From: Acidobacteriota bacterium
GTDB taxonomy: Bacteria; Acidobacteriota; Terriglobia; Acidiferrales; UBA7541
Direction: 5' to 3'
Length of the DNA: 35,972 nt
Assembly (NCBI GenBank): GCA_003225295.1
Contig: QHYZ01000096.1
Span: 1 to 35,972 of the forward strand
The notes beneath the pieces were generated by a model. That model had not been told where the DNA came from. It saw nothing but the letters and a program-made list of their open reading frames with translations, and ran no database searches. A program made the position numbers and the translations under genes. Positions 13,842-28,670 of the stretch are shown piece after piece (position 1 is the first letter of the stretch; the number at the start of each line of letters is the position of its first letter).

Positions 13842-13857
13842 TGTGACCAGGGTCACC
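13842..13857. promoter_or_regulatory. CRP/FNR-like palindrome upstream of nifJ
   Basis: TGTGA-N6-TCACC, containing the perfect palindrome GTGACC-AG-GGTCAC (13843-13856), lies 73-88 bases upstream of the nifJ start. It differs by one base from the CRP-family consensus TGTGA-N6-TCACA. A second GGTCACC occurs at 13873-13879, 22 bases after the first, about two helical turns. A regulator of the CRP/FNR superfamily could act here; which one is unknown. Confidence 0.4.
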
Positions 13858-13929
13858 ACCAATTGTGTCGACGGTCACCGGCATCCTAGCGGCATGTCCG
13901 ATATCCTGGCGATCGTGCAGGAGGGTACG

Positions 13930-17540
<3,611 letters not shown>

Positions 17541-17544
<4 letters not shown>

Positions 17545-18545
17545 TCGACCTCACCACGCAGTACATGAGCCTGGCGCTCAAGAATCCACTCGTCGCTTCC
17601 GCGTCTCCGCTCACCGAATCCATGGACAATCTACGCCGTCTGGAAGACTCCGGCATCGCCGCCGTTGTCCTGCCCTCGCTGTTCGAAGAACAGCTCGCCC
17701 TCGAGAGCGTGCTAATCGATCGCGACCTCTCCCGTGGCGCCGATGAATTCGCCGAGGCCATCACCTATCTCCCCAATGTGGAGTCCTACAACACTGGGCC
17801 GGAAGGCTACTTGGAGCTGATTCATCGGGCAAAAAAGGCCGTCGTCATTCCCGTTATCGCCAGTTTGAACGGCACGACACCCGGCGGCTGGGTTCGCTAT
17901 GCCCGCGAAATGGAACAAGCCGGCGCCGATGCCATCGAGCTCAACCTCTACTCGATCGAAACCGATCCGCGCAAAAGCGGCGACACCGTCGAGGACCGCT
18001 ACTGCGAACTCGTGCACCAAGTGAAAGCCGGCTTGCAAATCCCCGTTGCCGTCAAGCTATCCCCATTCTTCAGTTCTATGGCCCACATGGCCAGGCGTCT
18101 CGACGACGCTGGTGCCGACGCCCTCGTGCTGTTCAACCGTTTCTATCAAGCCGATTTCGATATTGAAAACCTCGAGGCCGCGCCGCATCTAGTCCTCAGC
18201 GATCCCTGTGAGCTCCCATTGCGCCTGCATTGGGTCGCGATTCTCTGCGGTTCCGTCCGGCCGAGCTTGGCCATTACCGGCGGCGTCCATCGCGCCGAAG
18301 ACGTTGTGAAGTGCATGATGGCCGGGGCAGAAGTCGCCATGATGACTTCGGCGCTCATTCAAAACGGTGTTCGATACCCACACCGCATCCTGGACGATCT
18401 CGTCCTCTGGATGACCGAACATGAGTACGAATCGATTGAACAAATGCACGGCAGCATGAGCTACCGCGCAGCCCCCAATCCCGGTGCCTTCGAGCGCAGC
18501 AATTACATGAAGATGCTCAGTTCTTACGCCCTGCGCATGCGCTGA
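17541..18545 (+). CDS. Dihydroorotate-dehydrogenase-like flavoprotein
   Basis: A 334-residue TIM-barrel protein of the DHOD-like family. LKNPLVASASPLTESMDNLRRLEDSGIAAVV in pieces is the N-terminal FMN-binding strand, followed by VIASLNGTTPGGWVRYAREMEQAGADAIELN, PVAVKLSPFF, and GGVHRAEDVVKCMMAGAEVAMMTSALI, the phosphate-binding end of the barrel. The usual DHOD active-site loop is not obvious, so pyrimidine synthesis is doubtful. The GTG start overlaps the nifJ stop as GTGA, with AAGGAGG 6 nt before it, so it is co-translated with nifJ. This pairing recurs next to pyruvate:ferredoxin oxidoreductase genes, which suggests an accessory electron-transfer or pyruvate-linked role rather than pyrimidine synthesis; that is inference. 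Confidence 0.88.
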
Positions 18546-18656
18546 ACCTGAAAGAGTGCAGCCGCTATTGGACCACCGGATGCGCAAAACCGGGCCACAA
18601 GTCTAATTGGATTCGGAAGCAAGTCGCTGGCGCTATATCATCGTTTCCGAACAACC

Positions 18657-20549
18657 ATGAGGAAGGCTCGAGTGACGCAAGCAGTGGCCACAGCTCGCGT
18701 GGAAAAGCCCAGGGTGCCTACTCTGTGGACGAGGCCGAACAGCATTGCGCTTCTGACAATCACAGGCATTCTTCTTCATCTATTTCTTCGATATCTTCTC
18801 AGTACTCCCCGAATCGCCTGGCAAGTTCCCCTTTTCGTGGTCTTGATCATCGGCGGCGTATTTCTCCTTGTGCCGTTGACGCAAAAACTTTTTGCGCGGG
18901 AATTTGGATCGGATCACCTCGCTGGAATCTCGATCATCACCTCGGTAATTCTAGGCGAATATCTTGTCGCTGCGATCGTAATCTTGATGCTCTCAGGGGG
19001 AACGGCCCTTGAACAATACGCTAGCCGCCGTGCTTCCTCGGTGCTTGATGCGCTTGCTAAGCGGATGCCGCAAGTCGCCCACCGAAAATACGCAAGCGCT
19101 CTATCGGATGTAGAACTCAAGGACATAGCTATAGGAGACACCCTGGTCATATTTCCGCACGAAATCTGTCCCGTCGATGGAGTGGTCATCGAGGGCCACG
19201 GAAAGATGAATGAAGCCTATCTCACGGGTGAACCATTCGAGATCGCCAAAACACCAGGCTCGGAAGTGCTTTCGGGCTCCATAAATGGCGATGCTGCCTT
19301 GCACATTCGTGCCGGAAAGCTGGCACTAGATTCGCGTTACGCGAGAATTATGCGCGTGATGCAGGACGCAGAACAGCGTCGCCCCCGCATCCGCCGGCTC
19401 GGAGACGCCCTTGGCGCCTGGTATACACCTGTGGCGCTCTTGCTGGCAGGAATCGCTTGGGCAGCCAGCGGCGAATCCCACCGTTTCCTGGCCGTGCTTG
19501 TCGTAGCAACACCCTGCCCACTGCTAATTTCCATCCCCGTGGCGGTGATGGGCGCAATTTCCTTGTCCGCGAGACGCGGGATCATCATAAAGAATCCAGC
19601 CGTGCTCGAGCAGATCGACCGTTGCCGCACCCTTATCTTCGACAAGACTGGAACGCTGACATACGGTAAACCTTCGTTGTCCGAGATCCTTTGTGCTCCC
19701 GGATTTGCAAAGGATGAGGTTCTCCGCGTTACTGCAAGCCTGGAGCATTATTCAAAGCATCCCCTTTCCCGGGCGATTCTTGAGGCCGCTCAAAGCGCAA
19801 ACCTTCCCGCAGAACTTGTTTCGGAAATCAGCGAGCGTCCCGGTGAGGGGCTAAGAGGAAAGGTTAACCGGCACAGTGTTTGGATTACAAACCGCAAGAA
19901 GGTAGTCGAACGACAACTTGCGCTACCACCGGTCGCTCCGGGGTTGGAATGCCTGCTCTTTGTCGACGACGTATATGCCGCCAGTTTTCGTTTCCATGAC
20001 ATGCCTCGCGCGGAAGGGCGTACGTTTATTAAGCATCTGAGACCGCGCCATGCCGTCAACCATATCTTACTCGTTTCTGGCGATCGCGACCAGGAAGTGC
20101 GGCATCTGGCCAAACAAGTTGGAATCACGGAACTTTATTCCGCCAAGAGTCCGGAGGACAAGGTTGCTATCGTCCGCCAGGAGGCGGCGCAGGCCCCTAC
20201 GCTGTTCCTTGGGGATGGCATTAACGATGCGCCGGCAATGCAAGCGGCAACGGTCGGCGTTGCCTTTGGAGCGCAAAGCGACATTACTTCCGAGGCCGCC
20301 GATGCAGTTATCCTTGAGACTTCCCTGGGTCGAGTGGACGAACTGATGCATATCGCGCGGCGCATGCGTCACATTGCTCTTCAATCCGCCATCGGCGGGA
20401 TAGCATTGAGTATTTTAGGAATGTTTGCTGCCGCGTTCGGATACCTGCCGCCAATCGGAGGAGCCATCGCGCAGGAAATCATCGACCTCGCCGCAGTCCT
20501 GAACGCTGTGCGAGTTGCCTTGCCCACACATTCGCTGACTGATTTCTGA
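18657..20549 (+). CDS. P1B-type heavy-metal-translocating P-type ATPase, TPCP variant
   Basis: A 630-residue metal ATPase without an N-terminal metal-binding domain. TGEP is at 190-193, the phosphorylated Asp329 is in DKTGTLT, the HP motif lies in SLEHYSKHPLS, and GDGINDAP starts at 519. The membrane metal site reads TPCP (285-288) instead of CPC or SPC, and the last helix carries QEIID and LNAVR (606-619). This combination belongs to a less-studied P1B group, and the transported ion cannot be read from it. The start could be ATG 18657 or, with a better AGGAAGG ribosome site, GTG 18672. It lies 111 bases after the nifJ unit on the same strand and may share its expression. Confidence 0.9.
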   Translation: MRKARVTQAVATARVEKPRVPTLWTRPNSIALLTITGILLHLFLRYLLSTPRIAWQVPLFVVLIIGGVFLLVPLTQKLFAREFGSDHLAGISIITSVILGEYLVAAIVILMLSGGTALEQYASRRASSVLDALAKRMPQVAHRKYASALSDVELKDIAIGDTLVIFPHEICPVDGVVIEGHGKMNEAYLTGEPFEIAKTPGSEVLSGSINGDAALHIRAGKLALDSRYARIMRVMQDAEQRRPRIRRLGDALGAWYTPVALLLAGIAWAASGESHRFLAVLVVATPCPLLISIPVAVMGAISLSARRGIIIKNPAVLEQIDRCRTLIFDKTGTLTYGKPSLSEILCAPGFAKDEVLRVTASLEHYSKHPLSRAILEAAQSANLPAELVSEISERPGEGLRGKVNRHSVWITNRKKVVERQLALPPVAPGLECLLFVDDVYAASFRFHDMPRAEGRTFIKHLRPRHAVNHILLVSGDRDQEVRHLAKQVGITELYSAKSPEDKVAIVRQEAAQAPTLFLGDGINDAPAMQAATVGVAFGAQSDITSEAADAVILETSLGRVDELMHIARRMRHIALQSAIGGIALSILGMFAAAFGYLPPIGGAIAQEIIDLAAVLNAVRVALPTHSLTDF

Positions 20550-23640: not shown

Positions 23641-24351
23641 ATGAAAATGACCGCTCCGGGAAAACTTATCGCCATCGAAGGCATCGATGGAAGTGGCAAG
23701 CGCACGCAGGTTGATCTACTGACACTTACCCTCAAGGCTCGCGGCCACTCCGTCTATTCCACTGGCTTTCCTCAATATGATTCCTGGTTCGGCAAAATGG
23801 TCGGCAAATTTCTGAATGGAGAGCTGGGCTCGCTGGAAAGTGTCGATCCCCACTTTACCACTCTGCTCTATGCCGGTGACCGTTTCGAAGCCAAGCATAA
23901 ACTTACGGCGGCGCTGGGCAACGGCCAAATTGTTCTTGTGGACCGGTACATCGGTTCCAACCTCGCTCACCAGACCGCTCGCGTCCCTCCGGCGATGCGC
24001 TCCGAATTCCTGGAATGGATCGAGCATCTGGAGTACAGCATCTACGGCCTTCCCCGCGAGAGCCTCATCCTCTACCTGCGCGTGCCACCTCAAGAAGCGC
24101 AGCGACTGGTGGAACGCAAATCTGCGCGCAGCTACACCTCCGCTCCGAAAGACTTGCTGGAGGCCAGCCTGCGGCACCTGGAAGACGCCGCGGAGATGTA
24201 CGACTCGCTCTCCCGCCGCGCGCCCTGGGCCACGATTCAATGTTTTGATGCCGCGCTCAACACCATGCGCGAACCGGAAGAAATTGCCAACGACGTCCTA
24301 GCCGCCATCGAAGGAGTGCTTTCATCGGCTTCCTCGGGTGAGGAGCGCTAG
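23641..24351 (+). CDS. tmk: Thymidylate (dTMP) kinase, GKRTQ variant
   Basis: A 236-residue P-loop kinase that phosphorylates dTMP to dTDP. The P-loop is GIDGSGKRT at 14-22, where most enzymes read GKS/TT. The substrate block FPQYDSWFGKMVGKFLNGELG follows in two pieces, then YAGDRF at 77-82 and DRY at 101-103. The FPxYxSxxGxxVxxxLNGE pattern belongs to a divergent group of thymidylate kinases, so nucleotide preference could differ. The lid region ERKSARSYTSAPKDLLE is Arg/Lys-bearing. It is followed after 3 bases by holB, a common pairing in bacteria, and the two are surely co-transcribed. Confidence 0.9.
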   Translation: MKMTAPGKLIAIEGIDGSGKRTQVDLLTLTLKARGHSVYSTGFPQYDSWFGKMVGKFLNGELGSLESVDPHFTTLLYAGDRFEAKHKLTAALGNGQIVLVDRYIGSNLAHQTARVPPAMRSEFLEWIEHLEYSIYGLPRESLILYLRVPPQEAQRLVERKSARSYTSAPKDLLEASLRHLEDAAEMYDSLSRRAPWATIQCFDAALNTMREPEEIANDVLAAIEGVLSSASSGEER

Positions 24352-24354
24352 CGT

Positions 24355-25482
24355 ATGGGTTTTTCCGAGTTTCTCGGGAACCAGCGCATTGTAACGGCGC
24401 TCCGCGGGACCCTGCGCAGTAAACGCGTCCCCCACTCGTTGCTCTTCACGGGGCCACGGGGCGTGGGCAAATTCACTCTCGCGCGTATGTTTTCACAGGC
24501 CGCGAATTGCGAGCGCCTTACGGACGATTTCTGCGGGAAGTGCGCCACTTGTCAGCGCATCTCCCAGCTCGCCGATCCGCAAACACTGCTCGAACAGGGA
24601 CTCGTCGAGCGGGGCGAGAGCGCCGACGCGGCCACGGTCGAGCGTGTGCCTCTGATCCTGCAGTCGCACCCAGATGTGTGGGCCCTCGTGCCCGATCCTG
24701 TCCGTCTGAAGAGTCCCGTCGCGCGCCCCATGCTGCGCGTGGGCCAGCTGCGCGCTGTTCAGCGCGCGGCCTACTTTCAACCCATGGGCCGGCGCCGCGT
24801 CTTCATCCTCGATGGCGCGGAGACCATGCGCTGGGACGTCGCCAACGTGTTCCTGAAAATGCTCGAGGAGCCTCCCGGTTCGGCGACGCTCATCCTCACC
24901 GCGCCCTCGCCCTATGCGCTTCTGCCGACCATCGTTTCTCGCTGCCTCCAATTTCATTTTGCGCCGCTGCCGCAGTCGGCCGTGGAGAAGATCCTGAAAG
25001 AAAAGACCCATCGCCAACCCGTGGAAATTAAACTCGCCGCGCAACTCGCGGAGGGCAGCCCGGGCCTGGCCATGGAAATGGATATTGATGCGGCCGCCCA
25101 GCACCGTAGGAACGCACTGCGTATCCTCGAACGGGCCGCACAAGGCCAGGGTTTCGCCGAGCTATTCTCTGCTACATCGGCACTCGCCAAGGACCGCAAT
25201 TCTACCTTCGAGGATCAGATCGGCGTTTTCTACGGCTTGCTCACCGATCTCCTTGAACTTACGTCGAAACTGAAAGAGCCGGTCTTGCGCAATGCACCGC
25301 TGGCGAAGGAATTGGAGTCACTCGGCAAATCCGTCGATTCTGCCTGGGTTCTCCGCGCCATCGCCGGCTTTGACGAACTTCACGCAGGTGCGCGCCGCAA
25401 TTTAAACCGCCAACTCGGCCTCGACGCCCTGGCCACCTCTCTTGCGCCTGTGCTTTCGTGGGCTTCCGAGCCCCGCCGCTAA
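24355..25482 (+). CDS. holB: DNA polymerase III clamp-loader delta' subunit
   Basis: A 375-residue AAA+ protein. The Walker A element is GPRGVGKFT (33-41); a zinc module uses Cys52, Cys60, Cys63 and Cys66; HPD is at 105-107; ILDGAETM at 151-158 replaces Walker B; FLKMLEEPP and SRC (195-197) complete the sensor region. In the clamp loader delta' carries the SRC arginine that acts on the neighbouring subunit and usually does not hydrolyse ATP. Between the zinc module and HPD there is an insertion of about 30 residues, which are normally nearly adjacent. It is located right after tmk. Confidence 0.9.
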   Translation: MGFSEFLGNQRIVTALRGTLRSKRVPHSLLFTGPRGVGKFTLARMFSQAANCERLTDDFCGKCATCQRISQLADPQTLLEQGLVERGESADAATVERVPLILQSHPDVWALVPDPVRLKSPVARPMLRVGQLRAVQRAAYFQPMGRRRVFILDGAETMRWDVANVFLKMLEEPPGSATLILTAPSPYALLPTIVSRCLQFHFAPLPQSAVEKILKEKTHRQPVEIKLAAQLAEGSPGLAMEMDIDAAAQHRRNALRILERAAQGQGFAELFSATSALAKDRNSTFEDQIGVFYGLLTDLLELTSKLKEPVLRNAPLAKELESLGKSVDSAWVLRAIAGFDELHAGARRNLNRQLGLDALATSLAPVLSWASEPRR

Positions 25483-25597
25483 TCAGCTGTGCCAAATATT
25501 CGCCATTGCAAAATAAAGTGGCTAGACTGTAACCGGCAGGCTTCCACACGCATCATAGGGAACAGATAGTCCACCCCGTAGGTTAGAAGGAGCAGTC

Positions 25598-25933
25598 ATG
25601 GTGAATCGCCGTATGTTTCGTCCGGGCTTCCCGGACGTCAAAGAGCCGAGCGCACCCCGCCCACAACACAACGGTCCTATCCCGAACAAAAAGCCCGCGC
25701 CGCCGGAAACAACCCACGCCGAGAACTTCTACTGGGTCAAGCAGATGCAGTCCCATACTCCGATGGCCGTCGTTCTCGAGGATGGCGAAGTGCTTCGCGG
25801 CACGGTTGAATGGTACGACCGCGATTGCATCAAGCTCACGCGCCAGGGCAGTCCCAACTTGCTCATCTTCAAGCGCGTGATCAAGTACGTCCACAAGGAT
25901 GGAGAAGAATCATCCCAGGGCGGCGAGGAGTAA
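25598..25933 (+). CDS. Hfq/Sm-like RNA-binding protein, divergent
   Basis: A 111-residue protein. The first 40 residues are Pro-rich and probably disordered. Residues 42-100 fit an Sm fold: [18 protein letters not shown] as helix and first strand, then [20 protein letters not shown] with the conserved Gly68 and Asp74 of the Sm1 motif, and [14 protein letters not shown] as Sm2. In Hfq the last motif reads YKHAISTI; here it is FKRVIKYV, so the nucleobase-binding His of the proximal face is replaced by Arg. The charged tail is Glu-rich. GAAGGAG precedes the ATG. It is likely a riboregulatory chaperone, but the binding specificity may differ from that of classical Hfq. Confidence 0.75.
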
Positions 25934-27545: not shown

Positions 27546-28670
27546 ATGCGCATCGGTATCACTTGCTATCCCACGTACGGCGGCTCTGGCGTCGTGGCCA
27601 CCGAGCTCGGCATGGAGCTCGCCGCGCGTGGCCATGAAATTCATTTCATCAGCTACGCTCCTCCGATCCGCATGAATCCCAACGATCCACGCATCCGTTT
27701 CCACGAAGTGGAGGTGGTCTCCTATCCGCTCTTTGACCATCCGCCGTACACGCTGGCGCTCGCCACTAAAATGCTCGAAGTTTTCGAATCCGCATCGCTC
27801 GACCTGCTGCACGTCCACTACGCCATTCCGCATTCCGTCAGCGCCATGCTGGCGCGCTCGATGGCCGCGCCGCGACGGCTCCCTTTCGTCACCACTCTCC
27901 ACGGCACGGATATTACCCTGGTCGGGAGCAACCGCAGCTATCTCCCGATCACGCGCTTTTCGATCGCACAGAGCGACGGTGTCACCGCCATCTCACGCTA
28001 CTTGCTCAATCAAACCATCAAAGAGTTCGATATCAAGCGCCCCATCGAAGTCATTCCTAATTTCGTGAACTGCGAACTCTACAATCGCACCGCCGACAAG
28101 GGTTTTGCGTCCCAATGGGCTCCCTATGGCGAACCCATCCTCATGCATCTCTCGAATTTCCGCCCCGTCAAACGCCTCCCGGATGTCATCGAAGTTTTTG
28201 CCATTGTCCGTGCCAAGATGCCGGCCAAGCTGGTCCTTATCGGAGACGGTCCGGACCGTGGAGCGGCGGAATACCTGGTACGCAAGTACAGTCTTCAGAA
28301 AGACGTTTTCTTCCTTGGCAAACAGGACAACGTCTACGAAAAGCTCGCCGCTGCCGATCTTTTTCTGCTTCCCTCTCAGCTTGAATCCTTCGGCCTGGCC
28401 GCCCTCGAAGCTATGGCCTGCGAAGTTCCCATCATCGCCACAAACGTCGGCGGCGTGCCCGAAGTCGTCGAGCATGGTGTGGATGGATTTTTGGTGGAAC
28501 CCGGTGACGTGAAGGAAGCCGCGCGCTACGCCATCGAAATCTTGTCCCGCGCCGACCGGGGCCGCGAAATGGGCAAAATCGCCCGCATCAGCGCCAAGAA
28601 AAAATTCTGCGCCAACGACGTCATACCCGCCTACGAGAGCTATTACAAACGTGTCCTCGACAAATCCTGA
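27546..28670 (+). CDS. bshA: N-acetyl-alpha-D-glucosaminyl L-malate synthase (bacillithiol biosynthesis)
   Basis: A 374-residue GT-B glycosyltransferase of family GT4. The N-terminus [21 protein letters not shown] is the BshA start block with the glycine loop that binds UDP-GlcNAc. [52 protein letters not shown] and [13 protein letters not shown] follow. The EX7E motif is Glu280-Glu288 in ESFGLAALE. BshA joins GlcNAc from UDP-GlcNAc to L-malate, the first step of bacillithiol synthesis; bshB and bshC are not in the window. GAGGGAG lies rather far (about 14 nt) from ATG. An upstream inverted repeat may be part of its leader. Confidence 0.92.

Follow-up and report, generated by a model that had tools for sequence, protein, structure and literature searches.

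Classical Hfq (PF17209, TIGR02383) has the Sm fold, built as an N-terminal helix and five strands; it forms a homohexamer that binds sRNA and mRNA and accelerates their annealing. According to the available part of one account (PMC5379935), its proximal pocket consists of Q8, F/Y42, K56, and H57 and its lateral rim of N13, R16, R17, S38, and F39. The classical gene has miaA, hflX, hflK, hflC, mutL, or mutS as neighbors, as stated in the available portion of the FlgV paper (PMC10802407). That portion, together with an excerpt of PMC11607428, divides prokaryotic Hfq into a classical and a mobile clade, the latter including the cyanobacterial type. Cyanobacterial Hfq is described in the excerpt available (PMC10989914) as having very low affinity for RNA and as acting in pilus biogenesis with PilB and EbsA. 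Where do the Acidobacteriota stand among these groups? The word stem "acidobacteri" is absent from the available text of the FlgV paper (PMC10802407). Searches of the literature for Hfq with acidobacterial terms or for Hfq-like proteins, which covered few subscription papers, gave no account of an acidobacterial Hfq in the titles and abstract openings of the matches listed.

We analyzed a stretch of 35,972 nucleotides (the window; contig QHYZ01000096.1) from an acidobacterial genome of 8.13 Mb that is 96% complete. The initial annotation had placed here a divergent Hfq/Sm-like protein with a proline-rich N-terminal extension and an acidic tail, encoded behind tmk and holB rather than beside miaA. 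All of these features were recovered: the extension covers residues 1 to 38, the tail is acidic, and the gene follows tmk-holB on the same strand, away from miaA and hflX. We use the name HfqL for the orthologue family of this protein and hfqL for its gene (Table 1). Against eight hand-chosen relatives of equal length, codon differences in hfqL fell mainly at third positions, and synonymous differences outnumbered nonsynonymous ones in all eight comparisons (4:1, 23:2, 26:6, 33:10, 42:24, 42:25, 40:17, and 42:21). This excess indicates a real gene under purifying selection. A promoter scan returned 0 sites and an Rfam scan 0 families.

Table 1. Coordinates of hfqL, its parts, and its upstream neighbors in the window.
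Feature	Position	Strand	Basis
hfqL, Hfq-related Sm-like protein, 111 aa	25598..25933	+	Open reading frame; PF21979 over cut-off; fold of model; purifying selection
Shine-Dalgarno-like AGAAGGAG, with AAGGAG at 25587-25592	25585..25592	+	5 nt before ATG; read from sequence
N-terminal arm motif VNRRMFRP, residues 2-9 (consensus VNRKLF/IRP)	25601..25624	+	Conservation over 109 sequences
Basic/Pro linker and N-terminal helix, residues 31-50 (helix 40-51)	25688..25747	+	Conservation and model
Sm/Hfq core, residues 39-100, alpha and five beta strands	25712..25897	+	pLDDT; alignment to E. coli Hfq
FKR, residues 91-93, at the Hfq YKH position, K invariant	25868..25876	+	Profile and structure alignments
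Acidic C-terminal tail of 11 residues (101-111), net charge -5	25898..25930	+	Charge count
tmk, dTMP kinase	23641..24351	+	PF02223, 70.7 bits; conserved synteny upstream of hfqL
holB, DNA polymerase III delta'	24355..25482	+	PF13177, 120.2 bits; conserved neighbor directly upstream of hfqL
holB-hfqL spacer, 115 nt; site of the PSP1 gene (ricT) in many other acidobacterial families	25483..25597	+	Synteny

The Sm core named in the initial annotation is recognizable by profile. HfqL scores 33.7 bits against PF21979 (Hfq_1, "Hfq related"), above the Pfam cut-off of 27, and 22.7 bits against PF17209 (Hfq), below its cut-off of 27. Its score with the classical Hfq model TIGR02383 is 21.1 bits, below the NCBIfam cut-off of 61.7; the best NCBIfam model is the cyanobacterial Hfq-related NF047718. 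At E ≤ 0.001, PF21979 and PF17209 each match all 53 rows of A1, our more divergent HfqL alignment. Conservation was read from A1 and from a set of 109 sequences, both of which include the protein of the window. T39, E42, Y45, K48, Q49, G63, G68, W72, Y73, D74, I78, K79, K92, Y97, and K100 are identical in all 109 sequences, and P35, E42, Y45, G68, Y73, D74, K92, and Y97 remain identical throughout A1. Within the arm (consensus V-N-R-K-L-F/I-R-P), R4 is identical in 105, R8 in 106, and P9 in 103 of the 109, and some rows of A1 carry short arms. Net charge averaged over the rows of A1 rises from -2.6 in the tail through +1.9 in the core to +4.2 in the arm; 44 of the 53 tails are acidic, 6 are basic, and 3 carry no net charge. 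A pattern scan of genome contigs with the one protein found 75 loci, whose titles all name acidobacterial lineages, the nearest being gp2, Acidiferrum, and Acidoferrales. Judged by sequence, HfqL is a distinct orthologue family in which the N-terminal arm and helix are conserved.

The structure model built from A1 has a pLDDT of 94 to 97 for residues 41 to 100, with a helix at 40 to 51 followed by five strands; confidence falls at the ends (57 to 60 in the first three arm blocks, <50 at residues 108 to 111). In a Foldseek search of the PDB, the best 50 rows were all Hfq. VIA-align placed model residues 39 to 101 on residues 5 to 65 of E. coli Hfq (Z 11.6, root mean square deviation 0.9 Å, 61 residues), tied with Synechocystis Hfq (Z 11.7, 2.7 Å, 66 residues). 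The A1 profile matched Caulobacter Hfq in the PDB at E = 5e-9, and against a profile of ten classical Hfq proteins from acidobacteria it gave a probability of 94%, with 29% identity over 48 columns. A tree of 57 columns, whose bootstrap had not settled, contains a 95/90 branch that splits HfqL and the archaeal MJ1435 from cyanobacterial Hfq and from classical Hfq of acidobacteria and other bacteria; it holds only two cyanobacterial rows, and MJ1435 sits on a very long branch and its place is unsure. The best profile and fold matches of HfqL are thus to Hfq, and no non-Sm family matched better. Profile and predicted fold, supported by this tree of few columns, assign HfqL to the Hfq branch of the Sm proteins as an acidobacterial subfamily.

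Three other assignments were rejected. A non-Sm fold conflicts with the confident Sm model and with Foldseek and structure alignments that all point to Hfq. An archaeal-type Lsm was discarded because the closest profile is Hfq and the first archaeal Sm protein (1i4k) appears only at E = 0.97. Descent from a recent duplication of the classical Hfq of acidobacteria was set aside because HfqL lies across the 95/90 branch of the 57-column tree, together with the long-branched MJ1435. MJ1435 (PDB 2qtx) itself resembles HfqL in an F-K-H-x-I-x-Y-I segment and a GEVL motif; it differs in the weakness of its match (E = 0.0025) and in its very long tree branch.

How far does HfqL retain the RNA-binding residues of Hfq? 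From the structure ranges and profile alignments we infer that residue n of E. coli Hfq corresponds to n+34 of HfqL before the loop and to n+36 after it; the loop, which precedes FKR, is two residues longer in HfqL than in classical Hfq, and the 38-residue arm is likewise a difference. In the proximal pocket, Q8 is replaced by E in all 53 rows of A1 and F42 by D or N in 43, whereas K56 remains K in all 53 and H57 remains H in 26. The H57 position is R in the protein of the window and H, R, Q, or S across HfqL. On the rim, N13 has become V, L, or I (47/53), R16 M (50/53), R17 Q (32/53), S38 W (52/53), and F39 Y (53/53). Y25 and I30, which we take to be distal-face residues, are changed as well, Y25 mostly to V and I30 to E64 in 49 of 53 rows. 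HfqL keeps K92, equivalent to the pore residue K56, along with Y73 (the aromatic residue at F39) and D74 (D40) in all 53 rows and R or K at 75 in 50. The ten aligned classical acidobacterial proteins keep Q8, N13, R16, K or R at 17, an aromatic residue at 42, and F-K-H. Because Q8, R16/R17, F42, and I30 are replaced, it is doubtful that HfqL binds U-rich or A-rich RNA with high affinity.

The initial annotation had rested its claim of altered RNA-binding residues on FKR in place of the YKH motif. Profile and structure alignments do place FKR there, and the claim of a divergent Hfq-branch Sm protein stands; as a distinguishing mark, FKR fails. Over the 109 sequences, the first position of the motif is Y in 51, F in 43, P in 9, and L in 6, and the third is H in 52, R in 33, and Q in 15, with 9 others; the K between them never varies. 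Classical hfq loci of acidobacteria themselves read FKH in all 31 that were read. By these alignments, FKR is a lineage variant and the least telling of the changes; the telling ones are Q8 to E, R16 to M, F42 mostly to D or N, and I30 to E.

In the host genome, PF17209 has no match over its cut-off, consistent with the absence of a canonical hfq elsewhere, and five other weak ones (E of 0.003 to 0.19, in frames of 46 to 481 aa). Hfq_1 has a single match over cut-off, which is hfqL, and two weaker ones. In the host family, the A1 profile detected HfqL in 78 of 89 genomes; among the 50 with completeness of 90% or more and contamination of 5% or less, it did so in 44. PF17209 exceeds its cut-off in 45 of the 89, and only one match, in G429, has a classical score (95.5 bits); the others score 27 to 42 bits and start at profile position 11 or 12, which is the HfqL pattern. 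By profile alone, HfqL genomes can be counted as lacking Hfq or, wrongly, as having an ordinary one. The classical hfq of G429 (L144/L172, G429:C118:69-251) lies close to one end of a contig of 11.8 kb and groups with hfq of another family (L059); it may represent contamination or transfer.

Across the phylum, we compared 80 hand-picked genomes, one per family (79 families, f2 twice), with completeness of at least 90% preferred. HfqL was detected in 65 and classical Hfq in 44; 35 have both, 30 HfqL alone (the host genome included), 9 classical Hfq alone, and 6 neither. In families f48, f49, and f54, a genome with an Hfq_1 or Hfq match was chosen over one without; families f3, f15, f32, f66, f76, and f81 and those unlisted were omitted, and the listed f32 genomes matched neither model. 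Such hand-picking can raise the HfqL and Hfq counts. In a less selected sample of 396 genomes spread evenly over the phylum, 257 exceeded the Hfq_1 cut-off and 266 the Hfq cut-off, each model also matching the other protein. HfqL was called with A1 at E ≤ 0.001, which gave 66 genomes and, once G200 had been dropped and counted as classical Hfq, 65; classical Hfq was called at a PF17209 E ≤ 1e-13, the next weaker row among the 80 being 2.4e-9. The six genomes with neither protein by these thresholds (G001, G011, G014, G041, G067, and G077) are 95 to 99% complete. On sequence grounds, HfqL is no peculiarity of the host genome: its orthologues occur in most acidobacterial families sampled, and the place behind tmk-holB is conserved. 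The remark in the initial annotation that Hfq riboregulation is poorly known in acidobacteria agrees with our literature searches, yet classical Hfq is common in the phylum, often alongside HfqL.

Several of these genomes show unusual Sm-type matches. G011 has a weak PF17209 match (8.6e-5). The single match in G200 (family f70) reaches 2.7e-14 with PF17209, 5.4e-7 with Hfq_1, and 23.8 bits with the HfqL profile, and the protein may be intermediate between classical Hfq and HfqL. A second, weaker HfqL match of 47 to 95 bits occurs in 13 of the 80. Divergent HfqL paralogues were seen at L154 (G121:C16, 66 bits), L155 (G210:C3, 58 bits), and L173 (G289:C1, 35 bits); all three adjoin a gene of one cluster, identified in L154 as inositol monophosphatase.

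The order tmk-holB-hfqL of the host, with all genes on the same strand, is extended elsewhere, often by ricT-hfqL and hfqL-pdxA. In 71 of the 75 genome-contig loci, holB lies near hfqL on the same strand (exceptions: L139, L140, L141, and L143). The flanking genes in other families encode a PSP1 protein (PF04468, 79.6 bits in L140), which we take to belong to the RicT/YaaT family, and PdxA (PF04166, 301.5 bits in L019). The pdxA gene follows hfqL in 18 of the 30 loci L009 to L038, which are best Hfq_1 matches rather than a random draw. Of the 39 genomes with both HfqL and PSP1, 21 have the PSP1 gene immediately upstream of hfqL and in the same orientation; in 17 others the two genes occupy separate contigs, and in 1 they lie at a distance of 137 kb. 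These conserved flanks suggest an ancestral tmk-holB-ricT-hfqL-pdxA cluster. A holB-ricT neighborhood is common in bacteria. At L055, the only classical hfq locus of acidobacteria whose neighborhood was inspected, hfq adjoins, by contrast with the tmk-holB or PSP1/pdxA setting of hfqL, the gene of an HflX-type GTPase, which we take to be HflX.

In B. subtilis, RicT acts with RNase Y as a complex, according to the part of PMC10470536 available. The two also occur together among the 80 acidobacterial genomes, with RNase Y in 44 of 45 RicT genomes (p = 1e-9; exception G140). The absence of PSP1 from all 89 host-family genomes and of RNase Y from all 21 searched (the host and 20 relatives) suggests that RicT and RNase Y were lost jointly in this family; an RNase E/G match lies in a 1054-aa open frame of the host genome. 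HfqL was present in 39 of 45 genomes with RicT versus 26 of 35 without (p = 0.25) and in 49 of 57 with RNase Y versus 16 of 23 without (p = 0.12). RNase E/G was present in 52 of 65 HfqL genomes versus all 15 without HfqL (p = 0.11), and in these 80 genomes HfqL showed no significant association with classical Hfq (p = 0.78). A strict dependence of HfqL on RicT, RNase Y, RNase E/G, or classical Hfq was rejected on these values; the link to ricT is one of gene order, with at most a weak trend in co-occurrence. Classical Hfq does go with RNase E/G, which was present in 42 of the 44 genomes that have Hfq and in 25 of the 36 that lack it (Fisher p = 0.002).

The account that we favor, at about even confidence, is that HfqL is an Sm ring that binds RNA with altered specificity and with basic arms. 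HfqL would assemble into a hexameric ring of the Hfq type that still binds RNA by means other than the classical base-reading pockets, the pocket for U-rich 3' ends (Q8, F42, and often H57) and the arginine rim (R16 and R17) having been replaced. RNA contacts would come from the pore lysine K92 and from R/K75, plus the conserved basic residues K48, K79, R82, and K100. Six basic N-terminal arms (VNRKLIRP ... KKPAPP) would reach over the ring face, either to hold RNA by its backbone or to serve as the docking site for a partner in RNA metabolism. RicT, the specificity factor of RNase Y, would be the likely ancestral partner where the two genes sit side by side; in the host family, where RicT was not found and RNase Y was not found in the relatives searched, HfqL may act alone or with RNase E. 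The basic arm and the invariant K92 suit RNA.

Could HfqL instead bind protein? A ring with little RNA affinity, serving as a scaffold much as cyanobacterial Hfq does on the type IV pilus motor PilB, is possible though we hold it with less confidence; the arm and helix would then be a docking surface. Strand 2 of both HfqL and cyanobacterial Hfq (NF047718; PDB 3hfn and 3hfo) carries W-x-D instead of S-F-D; the two also share a T or D at position 42 and the loss of the classical RNA residues, and the available part of PMC10989914 describes a cyanobacterial Hfq without key RNA residues that acts via PilB and EbsA. The near-constancy of R4, R8, P9, T39, E42, Y45, K48, and Q49 would suit a docking surface, whereas the basic character of the arm and the invariance of K92 speak against a ring indifferent to RNA. 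NF047718 is the top NCBIfam model, but at 27.9 bits it misses its cut-off of 52, and HfqL lies across the 95/90 branch from cyanobacterial Hfq (57 columns and two cyanobacterial rows only, bootstrap not settled) and has its own conserved arm. No pilus gene is among the identified conserved neighbors (replication genes, PSP1, and pdxA), many neighbor clusters being unannotated. Hfq_1 also has matches in the control genome Synechococcus elongatus, reported there without their cut-off status.

HfqL resembles the mobile Hfq clade, as far as that clade is described in the available text of PMC10802407, in being a nonclassical Hfq. It differs in its conserved gene order, which suggests vertical descent, and in that no relative was confirmed in viral contigs or plasmids, a comparison made without the clade's own profile. 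A pattern search of 2.9 million viral contigs gave 71 matches, none of which was confirmed as a relative, and 72,556 plasmids contained no match to the protein of the window. With no relative confirmed in either collection, a mobile hfqL appears unlikely.

It is improbable that HfqL took over the classical task of matching sRNA to mRNA via the proximal, rim, and distal faces. The fold is the same, 30 of the 80 genomes yielded no Hfq-type protein other than HfqL, and its tail, acidic in most relatives, is like the self-inhibiting tails reported for E. coli and Caulobacter Hfq in sources available in part; yet few or none of the 53 relatives retain the U-tail readers Q8 and F42, the rim arginines, or the distal residues, and the 35 genomes that keep both proteins argue for different jobs. 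We give practically no credence to a spurious or decaying frame, or to a non-Sm protein mistaken for Hfq as was Borrelia BB0268 (FlgV) according to the available text of PMC10802407, since the scores below the classical Hfq cut-offs that would allow such a mistake are countered by the confident Sm core of the model, purifying selection, and orthologues in most families sampled.

An RNA-binding HfqL could also be placed in a broader scheme, which we regard as speculative and rather doubtful. Next to the classical and the mobile/cyanobacterial types, HfqL would form a third branch of Hfq, passed on vertically and already present early in the Acidobacteriota within a tmk-holB-ricT-hfqL-pdxA cluster. 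It would be the main RNA-binding Sm ring of many lineages, with six basic arms replacing the U-tail pocket. In the host family and others that had lost classical Hfq (and RicT with RNase Y), it would have stayed on as the sole global Sm-type RNA regulator and would work by nonclassical rules.

Acidobacteriota are abundant soil bacteria, and HfqL may be key to RNA handling in them. On present comparisons, its fold is a known one, and it appears to be an Hfq variant without an earlier description among the literature matches listed. An Hfq-branch protein that occurs in most families sampled and lacks the RNA-pocket residues of Hfq raises the question of what an Hfq-like ring does without reading U-tails.

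Two further observations concern the window. Downstream of hfqL, bshA (27546-28670, +) encodes the bacillithiol glycosyltransferase (TIGR03999, 531.9 bits), and members of its cluster lie close to hfqL at 64 of 115 loci. The stretch 13843-20549 (+) encodes, in this order, a pyruvate:ferredoxin oxidoreductase of 1233 aa, a dihydroorotate-dehydrogenase-like protein, and a P-type ATPase.
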